Assembly: GCA_036489885.1 (NCBI GenBank)
Contig: DASXEW010000003.1
Coordinates: forward strand, 1-64,000
Source: Candidatus Baltobacteraceae bacterium
Lineage (GTDB): Bacteria > Vulcanimicrobiota > Vulcanimicrobiia > Vulcanimicrobiales > Vulcanimicrobiaceae
DNA length: 64,000 nt
Reading direction: 5' to 3'
The notes below the pieces were generated by a model, which saw only the letters and a program-made list of their open reading frames with translations, had not been told where the DNA came from and ran no database searches. A program made the position numbers and the translations under genes. Positions 23,892-47,455 of this stretch are shown here, in pieces (position 1 is the first letter of the stretch; every line of letters begins with the position of its first letter).

Positions 23892-24020
23892 GTCATCCCG
23901 AGCGTAGCGCTCGATGCGAAACGAGAGCGCGTAGTCGAGGGACAGCCGCAATGGGAGACGTCAACGATTATCTTTGTCCCTCGACTACGGCGCTTCGCGC
24001 CTACGCTCGGGATGACAAAC
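23890..24020. repeat. Pair of inverted GTCATCCCGAGCG-type repeats
   Basis: Lies between coaX and dusB. GTCATCCCGAGCGTAGCG at 23892 is followed about 90 bp later by the inverted form TCCCTCGACTACG...CTACGCTCGGGATGACA ending near 24018. The two can pair over a long distance. It supplies the 5' flank of dusB. Confidence 0.87.
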
Positions 24021-26363: not shown

Positions 26364-27683
26364 CTACCGTTGCTCGCCCTTCTGTCCCTTCATAACTGCA
26401 TCGGCAGCAGCGATGGCTCCGAGGGCGACGTGCTCGGCGAGCGTCCCGCCTTGCAAATAGACTTGGAACGGCGGCCGCAGGGGGGCGTCGCAGGAAAGCT
26501 CCGCGGTCGATCCGGCGATAAACGCGCCGCTGGACATGATCACGGGATCAACGTACCCGGGAACCGCCCCCGGCTCCGGTGCGAAGCGCGCGTTGACGGG
26601 CAGCACGCGCTGCAGCCCACGCGCAAAGGCAATCAGCGCTTCCGGAGTTCCGAGCGTAATCGCTTGCACCATATCGGTGCGCGGTTCGCCGCCGCGCGGT
26701 TCGACCTCGAAGCCAAGCTCGGAGAAGAGCGTCGCCGCGAAATCGAGGCCGCGTAGCGATTCGCCGACGAGCGCAGGTGCCGAAAATAGTCCTTGCAGCA
26801 GCGCACGGCCAAACCCGAGCGTCGAGCCGAGCGCGTCACGCAAACCGGGCGCGTACAAGCGCGCTGCAGTTCGTTCGATGACGTCCTTCCGTCCGATCAC
26901 GTAGCCGCCGGCGGGCGCGAGGCCGCCGCCGATGTTTTTGATCAGCGAACCTGCGATCGCATCGGCGCCGACTTCGAGCGGCTCGCGTTCTTCGACGAAC
27001 TCACCGTAGCAGTTGTCGACGATGATCCGCGCGTTCGGAGAGAACGAGCGCACGACGTGCACGAGCTCTTCGATCTCCGCGATCGACATCGATGGGCGCG
27101 GATTGTAACCGCGCGAGCGTTGCACGAAGATCGTACGCGCCGGCGTCGTCGCGAGAACTTCCGCGAGCGCGCCGGGTTCGAAACGTCCGTTACCATCGAG
27201 CGCAACTTCCGCATATCCAATGCCTTGCGACGCAAGCGAATTCGGTGCGGACGTGAGCGCGTAATGCAGCGTGTCGTACGGACGTCCGGCTGCACACACG
27301 ATCGTCTCACCGGGTGCGGTGCAGGCCGAAAGCGCCGTCAGAATTGCGTGTGTGCCGCTTGCGAAATTCAAGCGTGCGAGCGCACGTTCGCCACGGAAAA
27401 TGCGCGCCAGCAACGCTTCGTAGTGCTCGCGTGCCGCATCGTCGTAGCCGTAGCCGAGCGTTCCGGCCAGATCTGATTCGGCCAGACCTTCTTTCAGAAA
27501 AGCGCCGATGACACGCATACGAATGCGCGCGCGCAATGCGACGTCACGCGGCTGCAGCATCGACGCCGCAGCTCGCGCAGCATGCGCTACCTCGGGCCCG
27601 CACGCGGCGTGCTCGAGGATCGCTTCTATGAGGTCGCTAGAGTTTTCGTATGACGGCTTCGACTCGGCCGACGATTGTAACAT
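26364..27683 (-). CDS. YnbB-like PLP enzyme (methionine gamma-lyase-related, PF06838)
   Basis: Fold-type I PLP protein of uncertain reaction; relatives are annotated aluminium-resistance protein or cystathionine beta/methionine gamma-lyase-like. The 439-residue protein has YGYDDAAREHYEALLARIFR, LARLNFASGTHAILTALSAC, VQRSRGYNPRPSMSIAEIEE, the PLP-site region IIVDNCYGEFVEEREPLEVG and ADAIAGSLIKNIGGGLAPAG with the Schiff-base Lys, and MVQAITLGTPEALIAF. Start ATG 27683 overlaps the lexA 3' end by 47 bp; no later start exists before conserved sequence. Confidence 0.88.
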   Translation of the reverse strand: MLQSSAESKPSYENSSDLIEAILEHAACGPEVAHAARAAASMLQPRDVALRARIRMRVIGAFLKEGLAESDLAGTLGYGYDDAAREHYEALLARIFRGERALARLNFASGTHAILTALSACTAPGETIVCAAGRPYDTLHYALTSAPNSLASQGIGYAEVALDGNGRFEPGALAEVLATTPARTIFVQRSRGYNPRPSMSIAEIEELVHVVRSFSPNARIIVDNCYGEFVEEREPLEVGADAIAGSLIKNIGGGLAPAGGYVIGRKDVIERTAARLYAPGLRDALGSTLGFGRALLQGLFSAPALVGESLRGLDFAATLFSELGFEVEPRGGEPRTDMVQAITLGTPEALIAFARGLQRVLPVNARFAPEPGAVPGYVDPVIMSSGAFIAGSTAELSCDAPLRPPFQVYLQGGTLAEHVALGAIAAADAVMKGQKGEQR

Positions 27684-28269
27684 CGTCCGCGTAAATTGGC
27701 GTCATAGAGCGGTTCTCCGGTTGGAGCCGGATCCGGCTCGGTTCGCGGTAGAAGCGCTTGACGGTTGCTTCCCCGTCAAGCATCGCAACCACGATCTCAC
27801 CGTTCTTGGCATCCGGCGACGGCCTCACGACAATCAGATCGCCGTCCAAGATCGCGGCGTCGACCATTGAGTCGCCGCTGACCTTTAAGATGAAGGCGTT
27901 CGGATCGCGGACGAAGCCGGTCGGCAGCGCGAAAGTGTCCTCCACGTTCTCAACCGCCGTGATCGGAACGCCGGCTGCGACCTTACCGACGATGGGCACG
28001 TGCGCGACTTGCCCGTTTTCGTTGCGTGCGCGCTCGAGCGGCCGTGAGGCGCTTCCGCTTGGGACGAGCGCCCGGGGCTTAGTCGGATCGCGTTTGAGCA
28101 ATCCGCGGCGTTCGAGCGTCTTGAGATGGGACTGGACGGTCGACGAGGACGAGAGTCCCACCCGTTCGCCGATCTCGCGGACTGACGGCGGATAGCCACG
28201 CTCGGCCGTAAAGGCGCAAATGACGTCGAGAATCCGCTGTTGTCGGTCCGTTGTAACTGTTTCCGGCAA
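27637..28269 (-). CDS. lexA: SOS repressor LexA
   Basis: Represses DNA-damage genes until RecA-stimulated self-cleavage. The 210-residue protein has an N-terminal winged helix (ILDVICAFTAERGYPPSVRE then IGERVGLSSSSTVQSHLKTL), the cleavage site Ala99-Gly100 in GKVAAGVPI, and the Ser134 (SGDSMVD) and Lys171 (EATVKRFY) dyad. The helix-turn-helix is of the Gram-positive type that recognises CGAAC-N4-GTTCG, and such sites occur in its own upstream region. The gene is divergent from a small LysM-protein gene. Confidence 0.97.
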   Translation of the reverse strand: MPETVTTDRQQRILDVICAFTAERGYPPSVREIGERVGLSSSSTVQSHLKTLERRGLLKRDPTKPRALVPSGSASRPLERARNENGQVAHVPIVGKVAAGVPITAVENVEDTFALPTGFVRDPNAFILKVSGDSMVDAAILDGDLIVVRPSPDAKNGEIVVAMLDGEATVKRFYREPSRIRLQPENRSMTPIYADDVTIVGRVEAVIRKL

Positions 28270-28280
28270 AAGTTCCCCCC

Positions 28281-28324
28281 TGTGTCATCCCGAGCGTAGG
28301 CGCAAAGCGCCGTAGTCGAGGGAC
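28281..28324. repeat. GTCATCCCGAGCG-type palindromic repeat in the lexA leader
   Basis: GTCATCCCGAGCGTAGGCG at 28284, then GCGCAAAGCGC as the loop side and CGTAGTCGAGGGACA. It lies in the untranslated leader predicted for lexA, about 12-55 bp before the start codon. Confidence 0.85.
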
Positions 28325-28395
28325 AGAGATAAGTGCCATGCAGCTGGCACGACAGCGGCCTACGGTAGGGTCAGACTGGCCGCTCAATTGCTTTC

Positions 28396-28424
28396 ACCAT
28401 ATCAAGAACCGGGTAAAAAGGCAA
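28396..28424 (-). promoter_or_regulatory. Predicted lexA promoter
   Basis: On the minus strand a -35-like TTGCCT (28419-28424) is followed after 17 bp by a -10-like TATGGT (28396-28401). The SOS box at 28422-28435 overlaps the -35 by three bases, which would give autoregulation. Predicted by eye only. Confidence 0.55.
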
Positions 28425-28435
28425 ACATACGTTCG
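28422..28435. promoter_or_regulatory. SOS box 1 (Gram-positive type)
   Basis: CAAACATACGTTCG matches the CGAAC-N4-GTTCG consensus with one mismatch. It lies between the divergent promoters of lexA and the LysM gene, overlapping the lexA -35 and ending 8 bp before the -35 of the LysM gene. Confidence 0.8.
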
Positions 28436-28443
28436 AAGAAGTC

Positions 28444-28473
28444 TTGACGGCAAGCAAGCGGCCGAGGTACAAT
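28444..28473 (+). promoter_or_regulatory. Predicted promoter of the LysM gene
   Basis: TTGACG (28444-28449), 18-bp spacer, TACAAT (28468-28473): close to a housekeeping sigma consensus. It is bracketed by two SOS boxes, so LexA would block it from both sides. The expected transcript starts near 28480. Confidence 0.75.
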
Positions 28474-28481
28474 CTTGGGGA

Positions 28482-28495
28482 CGAACAGACGTTTG
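28482..28495. promoter_or_regulatory. SOS box 2 (Gram-positive type)
   Basis: CGAACAGACGTTTG matches CGAAC-N4-GTTCG with one mismatch. It sits just downstream of the -10 of the LysM gene, over the expected transcription start, a classic repressor position. Confidence 0.8.
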
Positions 28496-28521
28496 CCACT
28501 ATATATAGCGAGGACAAAGTA

Positions 28522-28809
28522 ATGTTGGCGACCCGAAAGACCCGATTCACCCTGATGCCGCTGATCGCGCTCGGGACCTTGAGTCTGGCAGTCTCGATCC
28601 CAACTCTCGCGAGCGGCCATCTTTACGCCGCAAGCCCGCAGCGCTACGAAACGGTCGTAGTGAAGCGCGGCGACGACCTCTGGACGCTGGCCGCGGCCAG
28701 GACGGCCTCCGGTAGCGACGTGCAAGCCACGATCGACCGCGTCATGGCCGACAATCATCTCGACACCGCCACACTGCAACCGGGACAGCAGATCCGAATC
28801 CCGATCTAA
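28522..28809 (+). CDS. Small LysM protein, YneA-like SOS cell-division inhibitor candidate
   Basis: In Bacillus, YneA is a LysM protein that halts division during the SOS response and lies divergently to lexA. Here a 95-residue product starts at ATG 28522 with GAGGAC upstream, has an N-terminal hydrophobic segment (FTLMPLIALGTLSLAVSIPT) and a C-terminal LysM domain (RYETVVVKRGDDLWTLAAAR ... LDTATLQPGQQIRIPI). Divergent placement and two LexA boxes around its promoter support the same role. The YneA assignment is by analogy of layout and domain, not by strong sequence identity. A + strand terminator follows. Confidence 0.8.
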   Translation: MLATRKTRFTLMPLIALGTLSLAVSIPTLASGHLYAASPQRYETVVVKRGDDLWTLAAARTASGSDVQATIDRVMADNHLDTATLQPGQQIRIPI

Positions 28810-28831
28810 ATCGTCGCCGTGTGATGGTTAA

Positions 28832-28862
28832 CGGGCCGCGTAAGCGGCTCGTTTTCTTTTTG
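28832..28862 (+). terminator. Rho-independent terminator after the LysM gene
   Basis: GGGCCGC-GTAA-GCGGCTC forms a short GC-rich stem-loop followed by TTTTCTTTTT. It lies 22 bp after the LysM stop codon. Confidence 0.85.
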
Positions 28863-28865
28863 CGA

Positions 28866-29096
28866 CTAAGGCCGTCGCACGATCACGACGTTATGTCCGC
28901 TGTGGCGATCGAGGAAGTTCAGCGCCTCGTCCATCCACGTATCGAGTCCTGATTGCAGATGACGCGCGACTTCTTGCACGACGTGCTGTTTGTTGCGCAA
29001 CCAAACCAGCTCGGAGCGCGTCGTCGCCGGCCAAATCGTATCCTCACACTCTTCACAGTGATAACCGTGTTTCACGTTGCAGCGCTTCTCTAGCAA
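28866..29096 (-). CDS. Small hypothetical protein with a possible zinc site
   Basis: Unrecognised. A 76-residue frame (MLEKRCNVKHGYHCEECEDT ...) contains Cys6, His13/Cys14 and Cys17, a possible metal site, followed by an amphipathic helical half (HVVQEVARHLQSGLDTWMDE). It lies between two terminators, convergent to the LysM gene, and begins just after the terminator of the next operon, so it would need its own promoter, which I cannot point to. Amino acid use looks protein-like, but there is no independent support. Confidence 0.45.
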   Translation of the reverse strand: MLEKRCNVKHGYHCEECEDTIWPATTRSELVWLRNKQHVVQEVARHLQSGLDTWMDEALNFLDRHSGHNVVIVRRP

Positions 29097-29147: not shown

Positions 29148-30578
29148 CTACTTGACGGGCGCCTTTGCCTTGAGTGCAGCGGCCGGCATGCGGTGGAGCG
29201 CTCTTCCAAGCTTCCGCGCATGAAGCAGCGGCAGGTTGGCGTTGCAGTCACCCGCTGCAGCGATCGTGCAGGTAGCTGTCGAGATCGACAGGTCCGCACT
29301 TCCCGCCGCGCCGAGCAACGTCGGCGAGGTCTTCCCGCTGCTGCTGGCTGCTTGCGTACCGTATTGCAACTCGTAGATCGGGTAATCAGCGTAGACCACT
29401 TGCGTGACTATCTGATCGCCCGCGGCAGTCGAGGTACAAGCCGGCAGCGTACCGCCGATCACGCATCCGGCCGGATTCGGCCCGATCGTGTCCGACAGCG
29501 TGCACACGAGTCCGGTGCAGCCAATGCCGTTACCACCGTTGACGGCCTCCAACGTGTAGTAGATTCCGCCCCCGCCACCGGCCGTAGCCGCCGCGGGGTA
29601 GTCGATGACTTCGACAAGCGCTTCCGTCCATGCGCCGGCCGGCGGCACAAGAGTGACGGTTCCGCCGCCGGTGCCATCCGGAACGAATCCCGGAGCAGCT
29701 CCCGCCGTTCCAAGATCAACAACGCCGGGCAACGCGAACGACCCCGATGCAGTCGTCGTTCCGGAATTCGCCGGAATACTGACTGAGAGACCGTACGTTC
29801 CGGCAGCCGCTGCGGGTGCCGGCATCATGAACACGTCGATGCCCAAGCTAATGCCGTTACCGACATCGTCTGAGTCAAAGGCAATGTTCTGCCCGTTGCT
29901 GTCTCTGCTGTACTGGATCGCCGGCGGACCGCCCCACGCTGCGTCGAGCTGGTTCGGATCGCAAGCCGGCGCCGTTGCGCAGCCCGCGTTGACCGTATCC
30001 CAGAGCGGCACGGGGTAGGGATTGACCGAGAACGGCGTACCATCCGACCCCGGGCCGATGATGCCCAGAAGCGCGGCGTAGTCACCCTGTCCAACGGAGT
30101 TGTACGGTTCAAGCCCGAGACCGAAAACGCCGCCGGATTGGCCGAACGTCGTTTGCGCAGTGCCTCCGCAATTGAACGCTGAGTTCTGCGTGGTGCTCGT
30201 GATTGTCGTGGTGGTCTCCGCCGTCGCAGAGCCGAAAGCCGCGGTCGAGCAGGGATCAAAACCCTCGACCGAGCCCGAGGCATCCGCGCTTCCGGCGGCG
30301 ATTGCCACCGGAAGCGTGATGGTCGGAGAGTTCAGCAGCGTACCGCTGCCGCCAGGCAACGTGCTGCCGGCCGGCTGACGGTACGTCGTAACCACGTTCA
30401 GACCGCCGTTGGCAGTACCGAACAAGTTAACCGTACCGACAGCAAACTGCAGAACGTTGCTGGGGATGCTGGCATGGTTAGTTGGTGCGGGTGCATTTGA
30501 TCCATTTGCCGACCCGCATCCGACGAGAGCGAACGAAGCGATCGCCCCTAATGCAATGAGCTTGTTGATATTAGTCAT
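29148..30578 (-). CDS. Secreted lipoprotein paired with a TonB-dependent receptor
   Basis: Unknown function; probably surface- or periplasm-exposed. Start taken at ATG 30578 (MTNINKLIALGAIASFALVG then Cys21), a good lipoprotein signal; an in-frame ATG at 30590 adds four residues. The 476-residue protein is rich in Gly, Ala, Ser, Thr and beta-branched residues, with several Cys pairs (DPCSTAAF, CTGLVC, CTIAAAGDC). It follows the receptor gene almost without gap, so both come from one mRNA, like SusC/SusD-type pairs, although it does not resemble SusD helical repeats. A terminator follows. Confidence 0.75.
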   Translation of the reverse strand: MTNINKLIALGAIASFALVGCGSANGSNAPAPTNHASIPSNVLQFAVGTVNLFGTANGGLNVVTTYRQPAGSTLPGGSGTLLNSPTITLPVAIAAGSADASGSVEGFDPCSTAAFGSATAETTTTITSTTQNSAFNCGGTAQTTFGQSGGVFGLGLEPYNSVGQGDYAALLGIIGPGSDGTPFSVNPYPVPLWDTVNAGCATAPACDPNQLDAAWGGPPAIQYSRDSNGQNIAFDSDDVGNGISLGIDVFMMPAPAAAAGTYGLSVSIPANSGTTTASGSFALPGVVDLGTAGAAPGFVPDGTGGGTVTLVPPAGAWTEALVEVIDYPAAATAGGGGGIYYTLEAVNGGNGIGCTGLVCTLSDTIGPNPAGCVIGGTLPACTSTAAGDQIVTQVVYADYPIYELQYGTQAASSSGKTSPTLLGAAGSADLSISTATCTIAAAGDCNANLPLLHARKLGRALHRMPAAALKAKAPVK

Positions 30579-30590
30579 GCGCCATTCCAT

Positions 30591-33500
30591 TTAAAACGAC
30601 CGCGAATAATAGACTTGGAGATAGAAGGGCTGTTGTGGCCCCACCGATGCTCCGCTGGTGTAGTTGGCATTCGAGAGCAAATATCCACCGTTGGTGAAGG
30701 CATTTGCCGCCGAGGGAATCACTGGGACGCAGCCCCGATTTCCAGCTCCAACCTGATTCGCGCATGAACCGTAGTTCGTCTGCGGTCCCGATATGCCCGT
30801 GGCTACCGGTTGGTAGTACGGGTTCACGATCGGAATCGTGTTGACGAACGCGTTGCCGAAGAGGTTGAACATCTGGACACCGATGGTGTTACGCGACCAC
30901 TTGTACTGCAACGTAAGATCTGCGTTCAAATTGAAGTGTGAAAGCAGACTTCCGCTCGCGACGCCAAGGCCGACGCCGCGGTTTGCCGCGATGTTCGGTT
31001 GAAGCGCGCTGCCCGGGTTCGCCGGATCGTAGTAGTTGGTCGCAATCGCGGCTCCCGGAGAGCCGATGAGGCTGCCCGTGTTGCCGAGACCGCTGCTGAC
31101 GGCCGGACCGAAATCCACCTGCGGGATATTCATGTTCGTGCCGTTCGCCAGCGTCGCCGCAACGTAGTTGCCCAAGTTGTACGGATAGCCGACGTTCATC
31201 TGAAGTTGTGGGCTGATGCTGAAACCGTTCTTGAAGTTCTCAACGCCGCCGATGCGGATCGAGAACGGTGAGACGAAGTCAGCGCGGTACAGATCGCCGA
31301 GTGCGACTGACGGCGGCGGAATGATCGGGAACGCGTTTTCGTAGCTGGTGAACGGCTCAGTCGTCGTTAGGACGTTCTGATACGTTGCAGCGAAGAAACC
31401 GGAGAATCCGACAGCCCGCTGTGGCGTCGTAAGGTCGAACTCAACTCCGCTCGTCTTTTCGTAACCTTCGTTTGTGGTTGCGAAGATACCGAGCACCGGA
31501 TTGATGATCGTACCGATCGGCAGCCCTGAGCCCGTTCGCACGAACGGCGAGAGCCGCAGACCCCAACCATTCGTGAAGAGATGGTTGTAGCTGAAGTCCC
31601 AGTTATTGTAGATAGCCGGAGCCGAGTTGCCGGCGTCCGGCGCCTCGATGTTGTCGCCTTCCCAATATAGGGCTTGCGCGTAGCTCTTGCAGTTCCAGGT
31701 GGTCGTTGCCAACCAGCCGCACTGCTGGACACCGTTCGCCGGGACGTTCAGATACGGTTCGTATCCGTACATACCGAACGGGGTGCCGGCAAACTGCGCG
31801 TCCGCGAAGACCGCGGAGCGGCCGTAGCTGAAGCGCAGCGAGTCGTTCGAGCCCATCTCATACGAGACGGACATGCGCGGCTCGGCCACCGTCGGGGATA
31901 GGAAGTTCGATCCCCAGGACGAGTTGAGGACGTCGAACGGATTGTTGATCGGAACCGTCGAGCCCGCGGCCACGCCGTAGGCGATACAGGAACCCGAGCA
32001 GATACCGCTCGCCGGCGGCCCTTGCCCCGGCAGCGAGTTGGTCCAGTGCGTGTTCTGCCCTTCCTCGCGGAAGCCGACGTCGAAGCGCAGACGGTCCGTT
32101 GGATTGTACTGGAAGCGAATACCCATGCCGTAGTTTTGGAAGATGGCATTTGTGTAGTTGATGCCCCAGTTCGGAATACGCGGCAAGCAGTTCGACGCGT
32201 ATCCGGCCGGAACCGCAACCGACGAACAATCCCGCTGCGGTATGTTAACCGCGTTGGCTCCGAAGTAGTTGTAGACGTAGCCACCCGGCAGCCAGTCGCC
32301 GATGAACGGCGCATTGGCAAGGCCGCCCGGATCGAGTCCGGTACCGTAGACCATGTAGTCCGGGTTGACGTTGTTCCAAACCGGGCGAATGAAATTGTAC
32401 TGACCGTTCAGCGTAACCGTTAGGTTCGAGCCGAATTGATGCAGCAAGTCCATGTTGACGCCCGAGGTCGGACCACCGACGCTACTCGTTTCGCCAACGC
32501 CGCCTGCGCCGTTAGCCCAAGCGCCGAGTGTGTGGGTGTCGTCGCTGTCGGACAGCGTTTCCCAGTTGTAGTACCGCAGCGCTAGGTACGTATTGGAGCT
32601 GAGGTTGTTGTCATATTCCAACTTGAGGAAACGCGTCTGGTTCGAGAACAGCTGCTGCGGCGACGTCGCCAGCGTGTTCGTTGCCGGCACGCCGGGAGCC
32701 AGGCCGACGAGTCCCGAGTACTGCGCTGGCGTTAGGGCCCCGCCGGTGACGCCGGCTGCGATCGCATAACCGAACGAGTTCTGCGTTGTGAAGTCGTACG
32801 GATAGTATGTATTGTCGAGCGCAGTCGACGTCAGGAACCCCTGCTGCGAGGTATTCATATAGAGCACTTGCAGCTGTTGGCTGTTGTCCTTACCGAACTT
32901 GAAGAAGAAGTTGTTGAGCAATTGGTCGTTCCGCAAACTCTGAGTTGGGAACGCAGCCAAGTATGCTTGCGGCGTACCGCCCGAATAACCGTAATACGGC
33001 GTCAGGCGCTCACCGTTGTATGAGATGTAATCCGAGAAGCGATTGTCGGGAGTCGAAAAGCCGTAGTTGATGCCGAGCTGGTGATCGAAATTCGGACCAC
33101 CGACACCGAGAAACAGCTCGCCGGAACCCGGACCGCTGCCGCGCTGCGGGACGATGTTGATGACGCCCGCGCCGACGCCGGCTTGCGTTGCGTCCGCAGC
33201 ACCTTCGACGACTTGAACGTTACCGACGCCGTTCATAAGTCCGAACGAACCATTTCCGTTAAGGAACGGCTCGCGGAACGGAACGCCGTCCATCTGATAT
33301 CCGACTTCCCAGGCCGCCGCACCGCGGATCGTCACCTGGGTCGAGTACGCCATGCTGTTGTTGGTCAGGGTCACACCCGGAACCGACAAAAGCGCCGCAT
33401 TTTCGTTCGACGAGTATTTGTTACCGGTCGATTGAACTATTTGCGTTTGGTTGATCGTATATTGATCGGTGGTTTGCGTCGGTTGGTATGCACTCGAAAC

Positions 33501-33902
33501 GCTACGCGATGTTACGCGCGCAATCGTTGCGAGATGCGGTTCGAGCGAAACCGCGCCGATCGAGTTCGTTTGGTCACCGAATACGGTGACGCCCGGAATG
33601 TTGACCGTGTCGTGACCCGGTGCGGTCACGCTGATCGAGTACGTGTCGACACTGACACCCAGGACCGTAAAGTGCCCCGAAGAGTCGGTCGTTGCCGAGT
33701 ATGAATTGCTCGGCGACTTCGCCGAGACGCTGGCACCGCTGATCGGTGCGCGCGTCGTCGAGTCAAGGACTGTACCGCTGAGCGTGCCATAGACACCGCC
33801 CGCAGCGAACGCCGATGGCGTAGTTAGTGCAAGAATCGCCACAGCTAACAGTGACGCGATTACGCACTTAACCGACGCACGGCGTATCCGTGTGAGTCGC
33901 AT
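30591..33902 (-). CDS. TonB-dependent outer-membrane receptor with carboxypeptidase-regulatory-like domain
   Basis: Active-transport channel in the outer membrane. Start ATG 33900-33902 has a GGAGG site 5 bp upstream and gives 1103 residues. Signal peptide 1-34 (VAILALTTPSAFAA), a CarbopepD_reg-like domain at about 40-120 (YGTLSGTVLDSTTRAPISGA), a plug at about 150-270 (SVPGVTLTNNSMAYSTQVTI, YQMDGVPFREPF, GAGVINIVPQRGSG), then a long barrel ending YYSRSF with terminal Phe, the outer-membrane insertion signal. The layout resembles Oar-type receptors. Its presence shows that the host is diderm. Substrate is unknown; a lipoprotein gene follows directly. Confidence 0.9.
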   Translation of the reverse strand: MRLTRIRRASVKCVIASLLAVAILALTTPSAFAAGGVYGTLSGTVLDSTTRAPISGASVSAKSPSNSYSATTDSSGHFTVLGVSVDTYSISVTAPGHDTVNIPGVTVFGDQTNSIGAVSLEPHLATIARVTSRSVSSAYQPTQTTDQYTINQTQIVQSTGNKYSSNENAALLSVPGVTLTNNSMAYSTQVTIRGAAAWEVGYQMDGVPFREPFLNGNGSFGLMNGVGNVQVVEGAADATQAGVGAGVINIVPQRGSGPGSGELFLGVGGPNFDHQLGINYGFSTPDNRFSDYISYNGERLTPYYGYSGGTPQAYLAAFPTQSLRNDQLLNNFFFKFGKDNSQQLQVLYMNTSQQGFLTSTALDNTYYPYDFTTQNSFGYAIAAGVTGGALTPAQYSGLVGLAPGVPATNTLATSPQQLFSNQTRFLKLEYDNNLSSNTYLALRYYNWETLSDSDDTHTLGAWANGAGGVGETSSVGGPTSGVNMDLLHQFGSNLTVTLNGQYNFIRPVWNNVNPDYMVYGTGLDPGGLANAPFIGDWLPGGYVYNYFGANAVNIPQRDCSSVAVPAGYASNCLPRIPNWGINYTNAIFQNYGMGIRFQYNPTDRLRFDVGFREEGQNTHWTNSLPGQGPPASGICSGSCIAYGVAAGSTVPINNPFDVLNSSWGSNFLSPTVAEPRMSVSYEMGSNDSLRFSYGRSAVFADAQFAGTPFGMYGYEPYLNVPANGVQQCGWLATTTWNCKSYAQALYWEGDNIEAPDAGNSAPAIYNNWDFSYNHLFTNGWGLRLSPFVRTGSGLPIGTIINPVLGIFATTNEGYEKTSGVEFDLTTPQRAVGFSGFFAATYQNVLTTTEPFTSYENAFPIIPPPSVALGDLYRADFVSPFSIRIGGVENFKNGFSISPQLQMNVGYPYNLGNYVAATLANGTNMNIPQVDFGPAVSSGLGNTGSLIGSPGAAIATNYYDPANPGSALQPNIAANRGVGLGVASGSLLSHFNLNADLTLQYKWSRNTIGVQMFNLFGNAFVNTIPIVNPYYQPVATGISGPQTNYGSCANQVGAGNRGCVPVIPSAANAFTNGGYLLSNANYTSGASVGPQQPFYLQVYYSRSF

Positions 33903-34066
33903 GCTGCCTCCAGATTGTTCCAATGGGGAAAGGCAAACTAAACAAGTGGGCGGCCCCGAGGGCCCCCTGCTCGCTCCGCGCCTTTCGTTTATGTGACGGG
34001 CTTAACCCTCTTAATACGCAGGGCAAGCACAAGAATACATTTCCTTACTTTTTCTGGATATTTGGC
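33903..34066. other. Intergenic stretch upstream of the receptor gene
   Basis: A 164-bp gap between the sucD stop and the receptor start. It holds the receptor's GGAGG ribosome-binding site and a GC-rich self-complementary run (GGCCCCGAGGGCCCCC, 33951-33968 region) in the likely leader. The AT-rich part near 34000-34060 is where a promoter is expected, but no convincing -35/-10 pair was found. Confidence 0.5.
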
Positions 34067-46459: not shown

Positions 46460-47455
46460 TCAGGCGAGGAATTTGCTGAGCCCGCGTGGTGCGTCGCTGT
46501 CAACACCGGCGGCGCGCCCCACGAAGAGCGCCAGCGCCTGCCCGGTGACCAGCCACGCCAGCGTATTGAACGCTTCGGGGGTCTTTGGCCCCAAGAGGGG
46601 GAGCTCGCCGAGCTTCGCGCCGATCACGAAGCGCAACGCGCCGGCGGCCTCTGCCTCACGCATCGGACGCTCGACGATATCGCGCGAGGTCTCGTCGAGG
46701 ATGCCGATCAGCGTGCACGATTTGTCGAGGATCGCGGAGCTGCCATGACGGAACTCTCCCGCCGGAAACCCCTCGGCGTGCACGTAGGTGGCTTCTTTCA
46801 TCTTCAGCGCAAGTTCGTAAGCGATCGGCACGCTGTAACCGGCACCCACGATCGCGACGGCGCGCGAGCGCGCGACGGACTGTGCCATCGTATCGACCTC
46901 GTGCCAACCATCGCTCGCGAACCAGCGTTCGACGTCGTCTGCGGTTTGGCGCAAGGTCTGTGCGGTGCGGTTACGATGTCCCGCGATCAGCGCAGCGCTC
47001 CACAGCAGAATCGCGGCCATTGCCGTGACGCTCTTGCTGGCGGGGACCGCCGTCTCGGGACCTGCGCTGACATCGATCGCAAGCGAGGCGCGCGCTGCGA
47101 GCGGCGAATCGGCCACATTGGTGAGCGCGACGGTTGCCCGGGGCGTCAAGATATCGAGCGCGCTCAGCAAATCGCTCGAGCGTCCGCTTTGCGAAAGCGC
47201 AACGACGCAGCCGTTGCGATAGACCTCACGATCGAAGCGTGCTTCGGTCGCGGCGAGTGCGCTTGCTGCGATGCCGCGACGCCGAAGCGCTAGCGCGCCG
47301 AGCTGCGCGACGAACAGCGAGCTTCCGCTTCCGACCAAACACACGGGTCCGCTGCCGATCGCACGTGCCAACTCTTCGGCCTTTGAGGAGTCCGCAATCC
47401 GGCGCCACACCAAGGGCTGCTCGCGAATCTCGCGCTCGAATCGTTCGCCCGGCAT
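46460..47455 (-). CDS. SIS-domain sugar-phosphate isomerase-like protein
   Basis: Two tandem SIS (sugar isomerase) domains in 331 residues: VCLVGSGSSLFVAQLGALAL and VVALSQSGRSSDLLSALDIL in the first, VAIVGAGYSVPIAYELALKM then KEATYVHAEGFPAGEFRHGS in the second. This is the layout of the C-terminal half of GlmS and of AgaS-type deaminases, without the glutaminase domain. It is probably an amino-sugar phosphate deaminase/isomerase; exact substrate unknown. Adjacent to a DacB-like cell-wall enzyme, possibly hinting at cell-wall amino-sugar turnover. Confidence 0.88.
   Translation of the reverse strand: MPGERFEREIREQPLVWRRIADSSKAEELARAIGSGPVCLVGSGSSLFVAQLGALALRRRGIAASALAATEARFDREVYRNGCVVALSQSGRSSDLLSALDILTPRATVALTNVADSPLAARASLAIDVSAGPETAVPASKSVTAMAAILLWSAALIAGHRNRTAQTLRQTADDVERWFASDGWHEVDTMAQSVARSRAVAIVGAGYSVPIAYELALKMKEATYVHAEGFPAGEFRHGSSAILDKSCTLIGILDETSRDIVERPMREAEAAGALRFVIGAKLGELPLLGPKTPEAFNTLAWLVTGQALALFVGRAAGVDSDAPRGLSKFLA

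Follow-up and report, generated by a model that had tools for sequence, protein, structure and literature searches.

A LexA-type operator region between lexA and a divergent YneA-like LysM gene, conserved in an outer-membrane-bearing class of Vulcanimicrobiota

Organization of the lexA-LysM region

The window (the whole stretch of 64,000 nt analysed here) belongs to a source genome of 3.48 Mb in four contigs. It contains a lexA gene and, adjacent to and divergent from it, a gene for a small LysM protein, with two LexA-type boxes and the promoter-like hexamers of both genes lying in between (Table 1). The lexA product reaches 226.6 bits with TIGR00498 (cut-off 110.95), is also matched by PF00717 and PF01726, and has the Ala-Gly, Ser and Lys residues used in self-cleavage, so that domains, equivalog cut-off and self-cleavage residues all identify it as LexA. 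Its recognition-helix segment is GLSSSSTVQSHL. Together with the Pfam match of the divergent product (PF01476, 8.8e-09), this bears out an earlier note on this DNA, which had placed a small LysM protein divergently from lexA.

Table 1. Coordinates of the lexA-LysM locus in the window
Feature	Position	Strand	Remarks
lexA	27637..28269	-	210 aa, TTG start; TIGR00498, PF00717, PF01726
Dispersed repeat copy in lexA 5' leader	28283..28332	.	Own-genome matches; incidental, outside the switch
Candidate lexA -10, TATGGT	28396..28401	-	Weak consensus; 17 bp on from the -35
Candidate lexA -35, TTGCCT	28419..28424	-	3 bp in common with box 1
Putative LexA box 1, CAAACATACGTTCG	28422..28435	.	Same box type in first place in class loci
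Predicted LysM gene -35, TTGACG	28444..28449	+	Class consensus TTGACA
Predicted LysM gene -10, TACAAT	28468..28473	+	Class consensus TAAAAT
Putative LexA box 2, CGAACAGACGTTTG	28482..28495	.	At or just after the expected LysM-gene transcription start
YneA-like protein gene	28522..28809	+	95 aa; PF01476; NF010723 below cut-off; modelled LysM
Terminator-like hairpin and T-run after LysM gene	28830..28853	+	Single-gene transcript

Each box has one mismatch to CGAAC-N4-GTTCG, a type that we take to be the Gram-positive LexA box consensus, and both fit CGAACN4GTTYG exactly, on opposite strands. Scanning positions 28200-28900 for promoters returned a single promoter-like site (TTGACG from 28444, an 18-bp spacer and TACAAT up to 28473; 10/12 matches, 0.2 expected). 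The two one-mismatch boxes around a near-consensus LysM promoter are thus present as earlier described, in a placement that is conserved class-wide, and the overlap of the left box with the predicted lexA -35 also holds, three bases being common to box 1 and TTGCCT (28424-28419). At up to one mismatch, the motif occurs 11 times in the window, where 7.84 +/- 2.66 occurrences are expected; the count reached 11 in 16 of 100 shuffles. As the window alone gives no enrichment over chance, the case is made from conservation in relatives. The only exact CGAACN4GTTCG of the window lies at 46918-46931, distant from lexA.

The repeat in the lexA leader has another copy at 23968-24017 and about 54 further copies genome-wide; the own-genome search gave 55 rows, one of them the query itself, and the rest match about the same stretch. 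Its start motif is absent from the relatives L009, L094 and L108. Positions 29151-30590 encode a 480-aa secreted-looking protein for which neither Pfam nor NCBIfam gave a match, and positions 30594-33923 a 1110-aa protein with the look, by eye, of a TonB receptor and no NCBIfam match.

Conservation of the predicted operator within the class

The class of the window comprises families f1-f3 of Eremiobacterota/Vulcanimicrobiota, of which 66 genomes were sampled. A TIGR00498 profile search of 98 genomes of the phylum gave LexA over cut-off in 83, 63 of these in the class; 80 loci were fetched, 62 from the class, and the window was added, giving 63 class loci. Where loci from the LexA similarity search came from contigs already included (for example L013 and L081), they were counted once only. 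One genome has a LexA fragment only (G093) and two are without LexA (G094, G095); all three are incomplete and none has a YneA-like match. The lexA-LysM pair is present in G008 (L094).

At least two boxes with up to one mismatch lie near lexA in 63/63 class loci, and in 62 of them a pair is found 50-70 bp apart, mostly 58-61 bp, the exception being L063, with a spacing of 132 bp. No pair of this spacing appeared in 12,600 mononucleotide-shuffled regions. At four f1 loci (L070, L077, L085 and L087) the first pair reported by the script includes a weaker site next to box 1. The divergent LysM gene is found in 62/62 testable class loci: pattern extraction gave 61/63, L099 has a divergent LysM protein that the pattern missed (NF010723 match at G040:C14:17941-18183), and the contig of L071 ends 277 bp upstream of lexA. 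Many f1 loci (L052, L054, L055, L057, L058, L061, L062, L064 and others) show a third box about 40 bp past box 2.

The anatomy of the region was compared in the 59 loci, window included, whose boxes are 57-63 bp apart. The LysM promoter sits between the boxes, usually as TTGACA-17/19-TAAAAT, its -35 at 5-10 bp (mostly 7-8) from box 1 and its -10 at 6-12 bp (mostly 8) from box 2; hexamers in the lexA direction are weaker (6-9/12 matches). LexA would cover the start site of the LysM gene when bound to box 2, and the lexA -35 when bound to box 1. The placement of the predicted boxes and its conservation exceed chance, and control of lexA and the LysM gene by a common putative LexA operator region is well supported. 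It is hardly credible that the boxes are chance matches or sites of another regulator. Such a reading could draw on the window-only motif count, but it is opposed by the frequency of the pair in the class as compared with the shuffles, by boxes that track the LexA recognition segment and by further boxes at recA and dnaE2.

LexA type and the other classes of the phylum

A survey of lexA neighbourhoods across the phylum had been proposed in the earlier note. Boxes and LysM gene proved to be class-wide, and neither a box nor a divergent LysM gene was found at any of 22 lexA loci (20 genomes) of the other classes, a survey that covered the stronger LexA matches of those genomes and in which three loci have little upstream sequence (L112, 536 bp; L120, 222 bp; L129, 769 bp). 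Matches to the YneA profile outside the class fall within open frames 148 to 1254 aa long, on contigs other than those of the LexA matches.

The LexA proteins differ in the same way. The recognition segment SS[ST]ST[VI] is found in 63/63 class proteins, and SSSSTV in 2/18 other-class proteins. Because the recognition segment differs outside the class along with the missing box and LysM gene, repressor type, predicted box and LysM gene co-occur, two other-class LexAs excepted. Class LexAs appear competent for cleavage, with [AV]AG in 63/63, GDSM in 59/63 and [VI]KR in 58/63.

The YneA-like protein

The divergent product has a basic N-terminal tail, one transmembrane segment (TM, about residues 9-31) and a single LysM domain (residues 44-95), which is the order of YneA; the TM was called from a hydrophobic stretch and a modelled helix, in a part of low confidence (pLDDT 49-62). 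The structure model has a mean pLDDT of 72.4, rising to 83-87 in the LysM part, which is modelled as strand-helix-helix-strand and has LysM domains as its best structural matches (4xcm, E 9.6e-04; 4uz2). Against NF010723, the YneA profile, the protein scores 51.5 bits (E 7.4e-14), under the cut-off of 60. The best score in the phylum is 59.3 bits, with 0/98 genomes over the cut-off, and in the control rings 1/14 genomes passes it. Identity to six Bacillota LysM proteins linked to lexA is 22-31%. Since the score is under the NF010723 cut-off and the TM motif differs from that of the Bacillota relatives, the protein is YneA-like by sequence and not shown to be YneA. The label given to it earlier thus stands for layout, TM and LysM match, and is weakened by the profile score and the TM motif.

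Nine positions (L11, P13, P27, V47, G50, W54, N78, G88 and P94) are invariant in 61/61 class proteins. Most of them have D at position 51 (91%) and T at position 52 (85%), and from the GDT motif we infer that D46-T47 of Bacillus subtilis YneA correspond to D51-D52 of the window protein. The f3 proteins have VW where others have LW.

Across 18 genomes, mean identity is 67% in the 23-residue TM and 58% in the LysM part. For BamA in the same genomes (18 of 20 were usable, with signal segments anchored on the first mature strand) it is 20% (ungapped) to 29% (aligned) in the signal segment and 69% in the mature part, a thin comparison as BamA is the only protein taken as yardstick. As the TM is more conserved than the LysM domain and, by far, than the BamA signal peptide, the alignment suggests a specific membrane partner for it. 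The LxP...P motif of the TM was not seen in the aligned Bacillota proteins, so the partner could differ from theirs. One could also think of an ordinary cleavable signal peptide releasing a soluble periplasmic LysM protein, and a site resembling that of signal peptidase does occur in some genera (VHA/AP in genus g2). The excess of identity over the BamA signal segment, by that single-protein yardstick, and the invariance of L11, P13 and P27 make this quite improbable, and we favour a retained membrane anchor.

Host envelope and proposed mechanism

BamA-family matches are present in 98/98 genomes of the phylum, 25 of them over the cut-off, which points to outer-membrane machinery. The cultured relative Vulcanimicrobium alpinus (NCBI: alpinum) is described as Gram-negative, with an LPS outer membrane and thin peptidoglycan, its cells being rods or filaments of 1.5-92 um (PMC9758169), and WPS-2 genomes are termed diderm in PMC6664022. 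Division inhibitors linked to lexA are reported in PMC6851548 as a Gram-positive feature. The earlier note found a LysM protein in an outer-membrane host unexpected. The surprise about the periplasm was overdrawn, as SidA of Caulobacter, according to PMC4211646, acts on FtsW in such a cell; the unusual part is the lexA-LysM pair outside Gram-positives. Searches of the open-licence literature gave no paper on LexA in Eremiobacterota or Vulcanimicrobium and, judging by the listings, none on a diderm lexA-LysM pair.

The likeness to Bacillus yneA claimed before was confirmed for the layout, the mechanism of YneA being given in PMC13396833. According to that source, the TM of B. subtilis YneA binds TM7 of FtsW, and peptidoglycan binding by its LysM domain (D46, T47, I81) is required for the block of septal synthesis. 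As in the B. subtilis lexA-yneA pair, the window gene is divergent from lexA, it codes for a small single-TM protein with its LysM domain, of conserved fold, outside, and boxes lie in the common promoter region. In contrast to B. subtilis, the window host has an outer membrane and the protein misses the NF010723 cut-off; the invariant LxP...P also sets the TM of the class apart from the aligned Bacillota proteins. Rv2719c/ChiZ of Mycobacterium tuberculosis is likewise a LysM protein linked to lexA and a predicted binder of FtsW TM7 (PMC13396833), but it is Gram-positive in the sense of the literature, and we liken it by description. SosA (Staphylococcus) and DivS (Corynebacterium) are, in PMC6851548, small membrane division inhibitors linked to lexA, but they are without a LysM domain. 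SidA is an SOS-induced inner-membrane FtsW inhibitor of a diderm (PMC4211646), but with 29 aa and no LysM it differs from the 95-aa window protein, which does not belong to the SidA type. The locus in this class is a variant, in a diderm, of an arrangement known from Gram-positives.

From these features we infer that LexA binds the boxes, that both genes are induced, and that the LysM product stays in the membrane, targets FtsW and arrests division, as follows. In the undamaged cell, LexA dimers would occupy box 1, covering the lexA -35 at a point shortly before the LysM -35, and box 2, covering the start site of the LysM gene, and would hold down lexA and the LysM gene. DNA damage would lead to RecA-triggered self-cleavage of LexA, freeing both genes. 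The LysM protein would then be anchored in the inner membrane by its sequence-specific TM helix, with LysM in the periplasm, and most likely dock on the septal peptidoglycan synthase (FtsW or a partner). By binding new glycan it would stall septation until repair ends, as YneA does in Bacillus. Judging by these analogies, inhibition of division by the LysM protein is likely, and FtsW is our best guess for the partner of the TM. We give a probability of about 0.72 to this explanation as a whole, namely a LexA-operated divergent promoter with a LysM product that arrests division in the FtsW-type manner.

Alternatively, the LexA-controlled product could protect or remodel peptidoglycan after damage, as partner of a hydrolase or as an envelope stress tether, and not inhibit FtsW. 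The private TM motif and the low YneA score are compatible with this, as is the cell wall hydrolase activity reported for ChiZ in PMC6851548. The protein has, however, no catalytic domain, only TM and LysM being found by Pfam and in the structure model, and its layout, size and topology fit the lexA-linked division inhibitors as the sources above describe them; we consider this alternative improbable and retain arrest of septation.

Origin of the lexA-LysM pair

In a search bounded by its peptide patterns, the window LexA matched a Candidatus Eremiobacterota MAG protein at 81% identity and a further 16 loci, recorded under Eremiobacterota, WPS-2, Vulcanimicrobiota or unclassified bacterium, at about 70%; Bacillota came next, at up to 58%. 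Of 25 non-phylum matches, 24 are Bacillota and one is from Desulfuromonadaceae. The class recognition segment also resembles that of Bacillota LexA. A divergent LysM protein was found by pattern in 10/24 of the Bacillota loci of this search, most Clostridium ones being without it.

These Bacillota affinities, and the confinement of the pair to one class of the phylum, would agree with its transfer into the class from a Bacillota-like donor rather than retention from a common Bacillati ancestor. In the LexA tree, however, the class sequences group as a single clade (96/97) that stands apart from the Bacillota rows instead of among them, with Bacillota on one side of a branch (93/95). Support for placing the class next to the other classes is weak (84/70) and the branches are long, so that the tree does not decide between transfer and descent, and we hold transfer as a tentative idea with somewhat less than even odds. 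NCBI taxonomy places the phylum in Bacillati. It is tempting to speculate that the lexA-LysM checkpoint is an ancestral module of Bacillati (Terrabacteria) and not a Gram-positive invention, working in the presence of an outer membrane as a LysM tether that acts from the periplasm on septal peptidoglycan synthesis, and kept by one diderm class with its own TM interface, although we regard this as rather unlikely.

The near-perfect conservation of the pair in a diderm class takes the lexA-LysM checkpoint to two-membrane cells, and its class-wide presence allows a test of whether the checkpoint preceded the loss of the outer membrane. Vulcanimicrobium alpinum is a cultured relative in which the checkpoint could be tested.

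Boxes at other genes

In the genome of the window, CGAACN4GTTYG has 51 strand-matches against 33 for a reversed control. Upstream of recA, or of an ftsY-recA pair, a box is present in 16/16 f1/f2 loci, and 11 of these 16 have the same N4, AGGA, so that another conserved element may exist there. No recA box was found in the 14 f3 loci, one of which has only 21 bp upstream. In L196 and other f1/f2 recA loci an exact box precedes the ftsY-recA pair (FtsY named by eye); that of L196 is flanked by GTTCGATTCC, and its AGGA centre recurs in f1/f2. For the conserved CGAACAGGAGTTCG upstream of ftsY-recA, ARAGORN found no tRNA or tmRNA gene in the 4/30 loci given to it.

Other own-genome boxes lie 16 bp upstream of an error-prone DnaE gene, 31 bp upstream of uvrA, 61 bp upstream of mraZ (L159, G000:C3:375283), at the head of the division and cell wall cluster, and near the gene of a RecA-domain protein, presumably resembling ImuA, where the box is located within the longest open frame. 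The own genome, where these boxes were first seen, was excluded when they were counted in the class. At dnaE2, 3 of 17 testable loci have an exact box and 5 have one at up to one mismatch, 12 of the 30 loci having no upstream sequence. At uvrA the figures are 1/29 and 2/29, and this mostly boxless gene was rejected as proof of class-wide boxes; at mraZ they are 4/30 and 6/30, too few for a general feature, though the box is perhaps real in some genera. Shuffle expectations are 0.47 for mraZ, 0.42 for uvrA and 0.19 for dnaE2, all computed with the own genome included. Through an mraZ box LexA may act directly on division genes; an FtsW over cut-off is encoded on the strand of the boxed mraZ, at a distance of 10 kb.

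The lack of f3 recA boxes and the mostly unboxed uvrA mean that the regulon varies. Since the boxes at recA, dnaE2, uvrA and mraZ vary across the class, the predicted core of the regulon consists of lexA and the LysM gene, and its periphery is variable.

Two more own-genome boxes were noted. One is 42 bp upstream of the gene of a B12-dependent ribonucleotide reductase with an intein and a LAGLIDADG domain (L153, G000:C1:982615). The other is a perfect palindrome, CGAACATATGTTCG, 13 bp upstream of the gene of a 142-aa protein that matches nothing in Pfam or NCBIfam (L167, G000:C3:1611420), possibly a new SOS gene.
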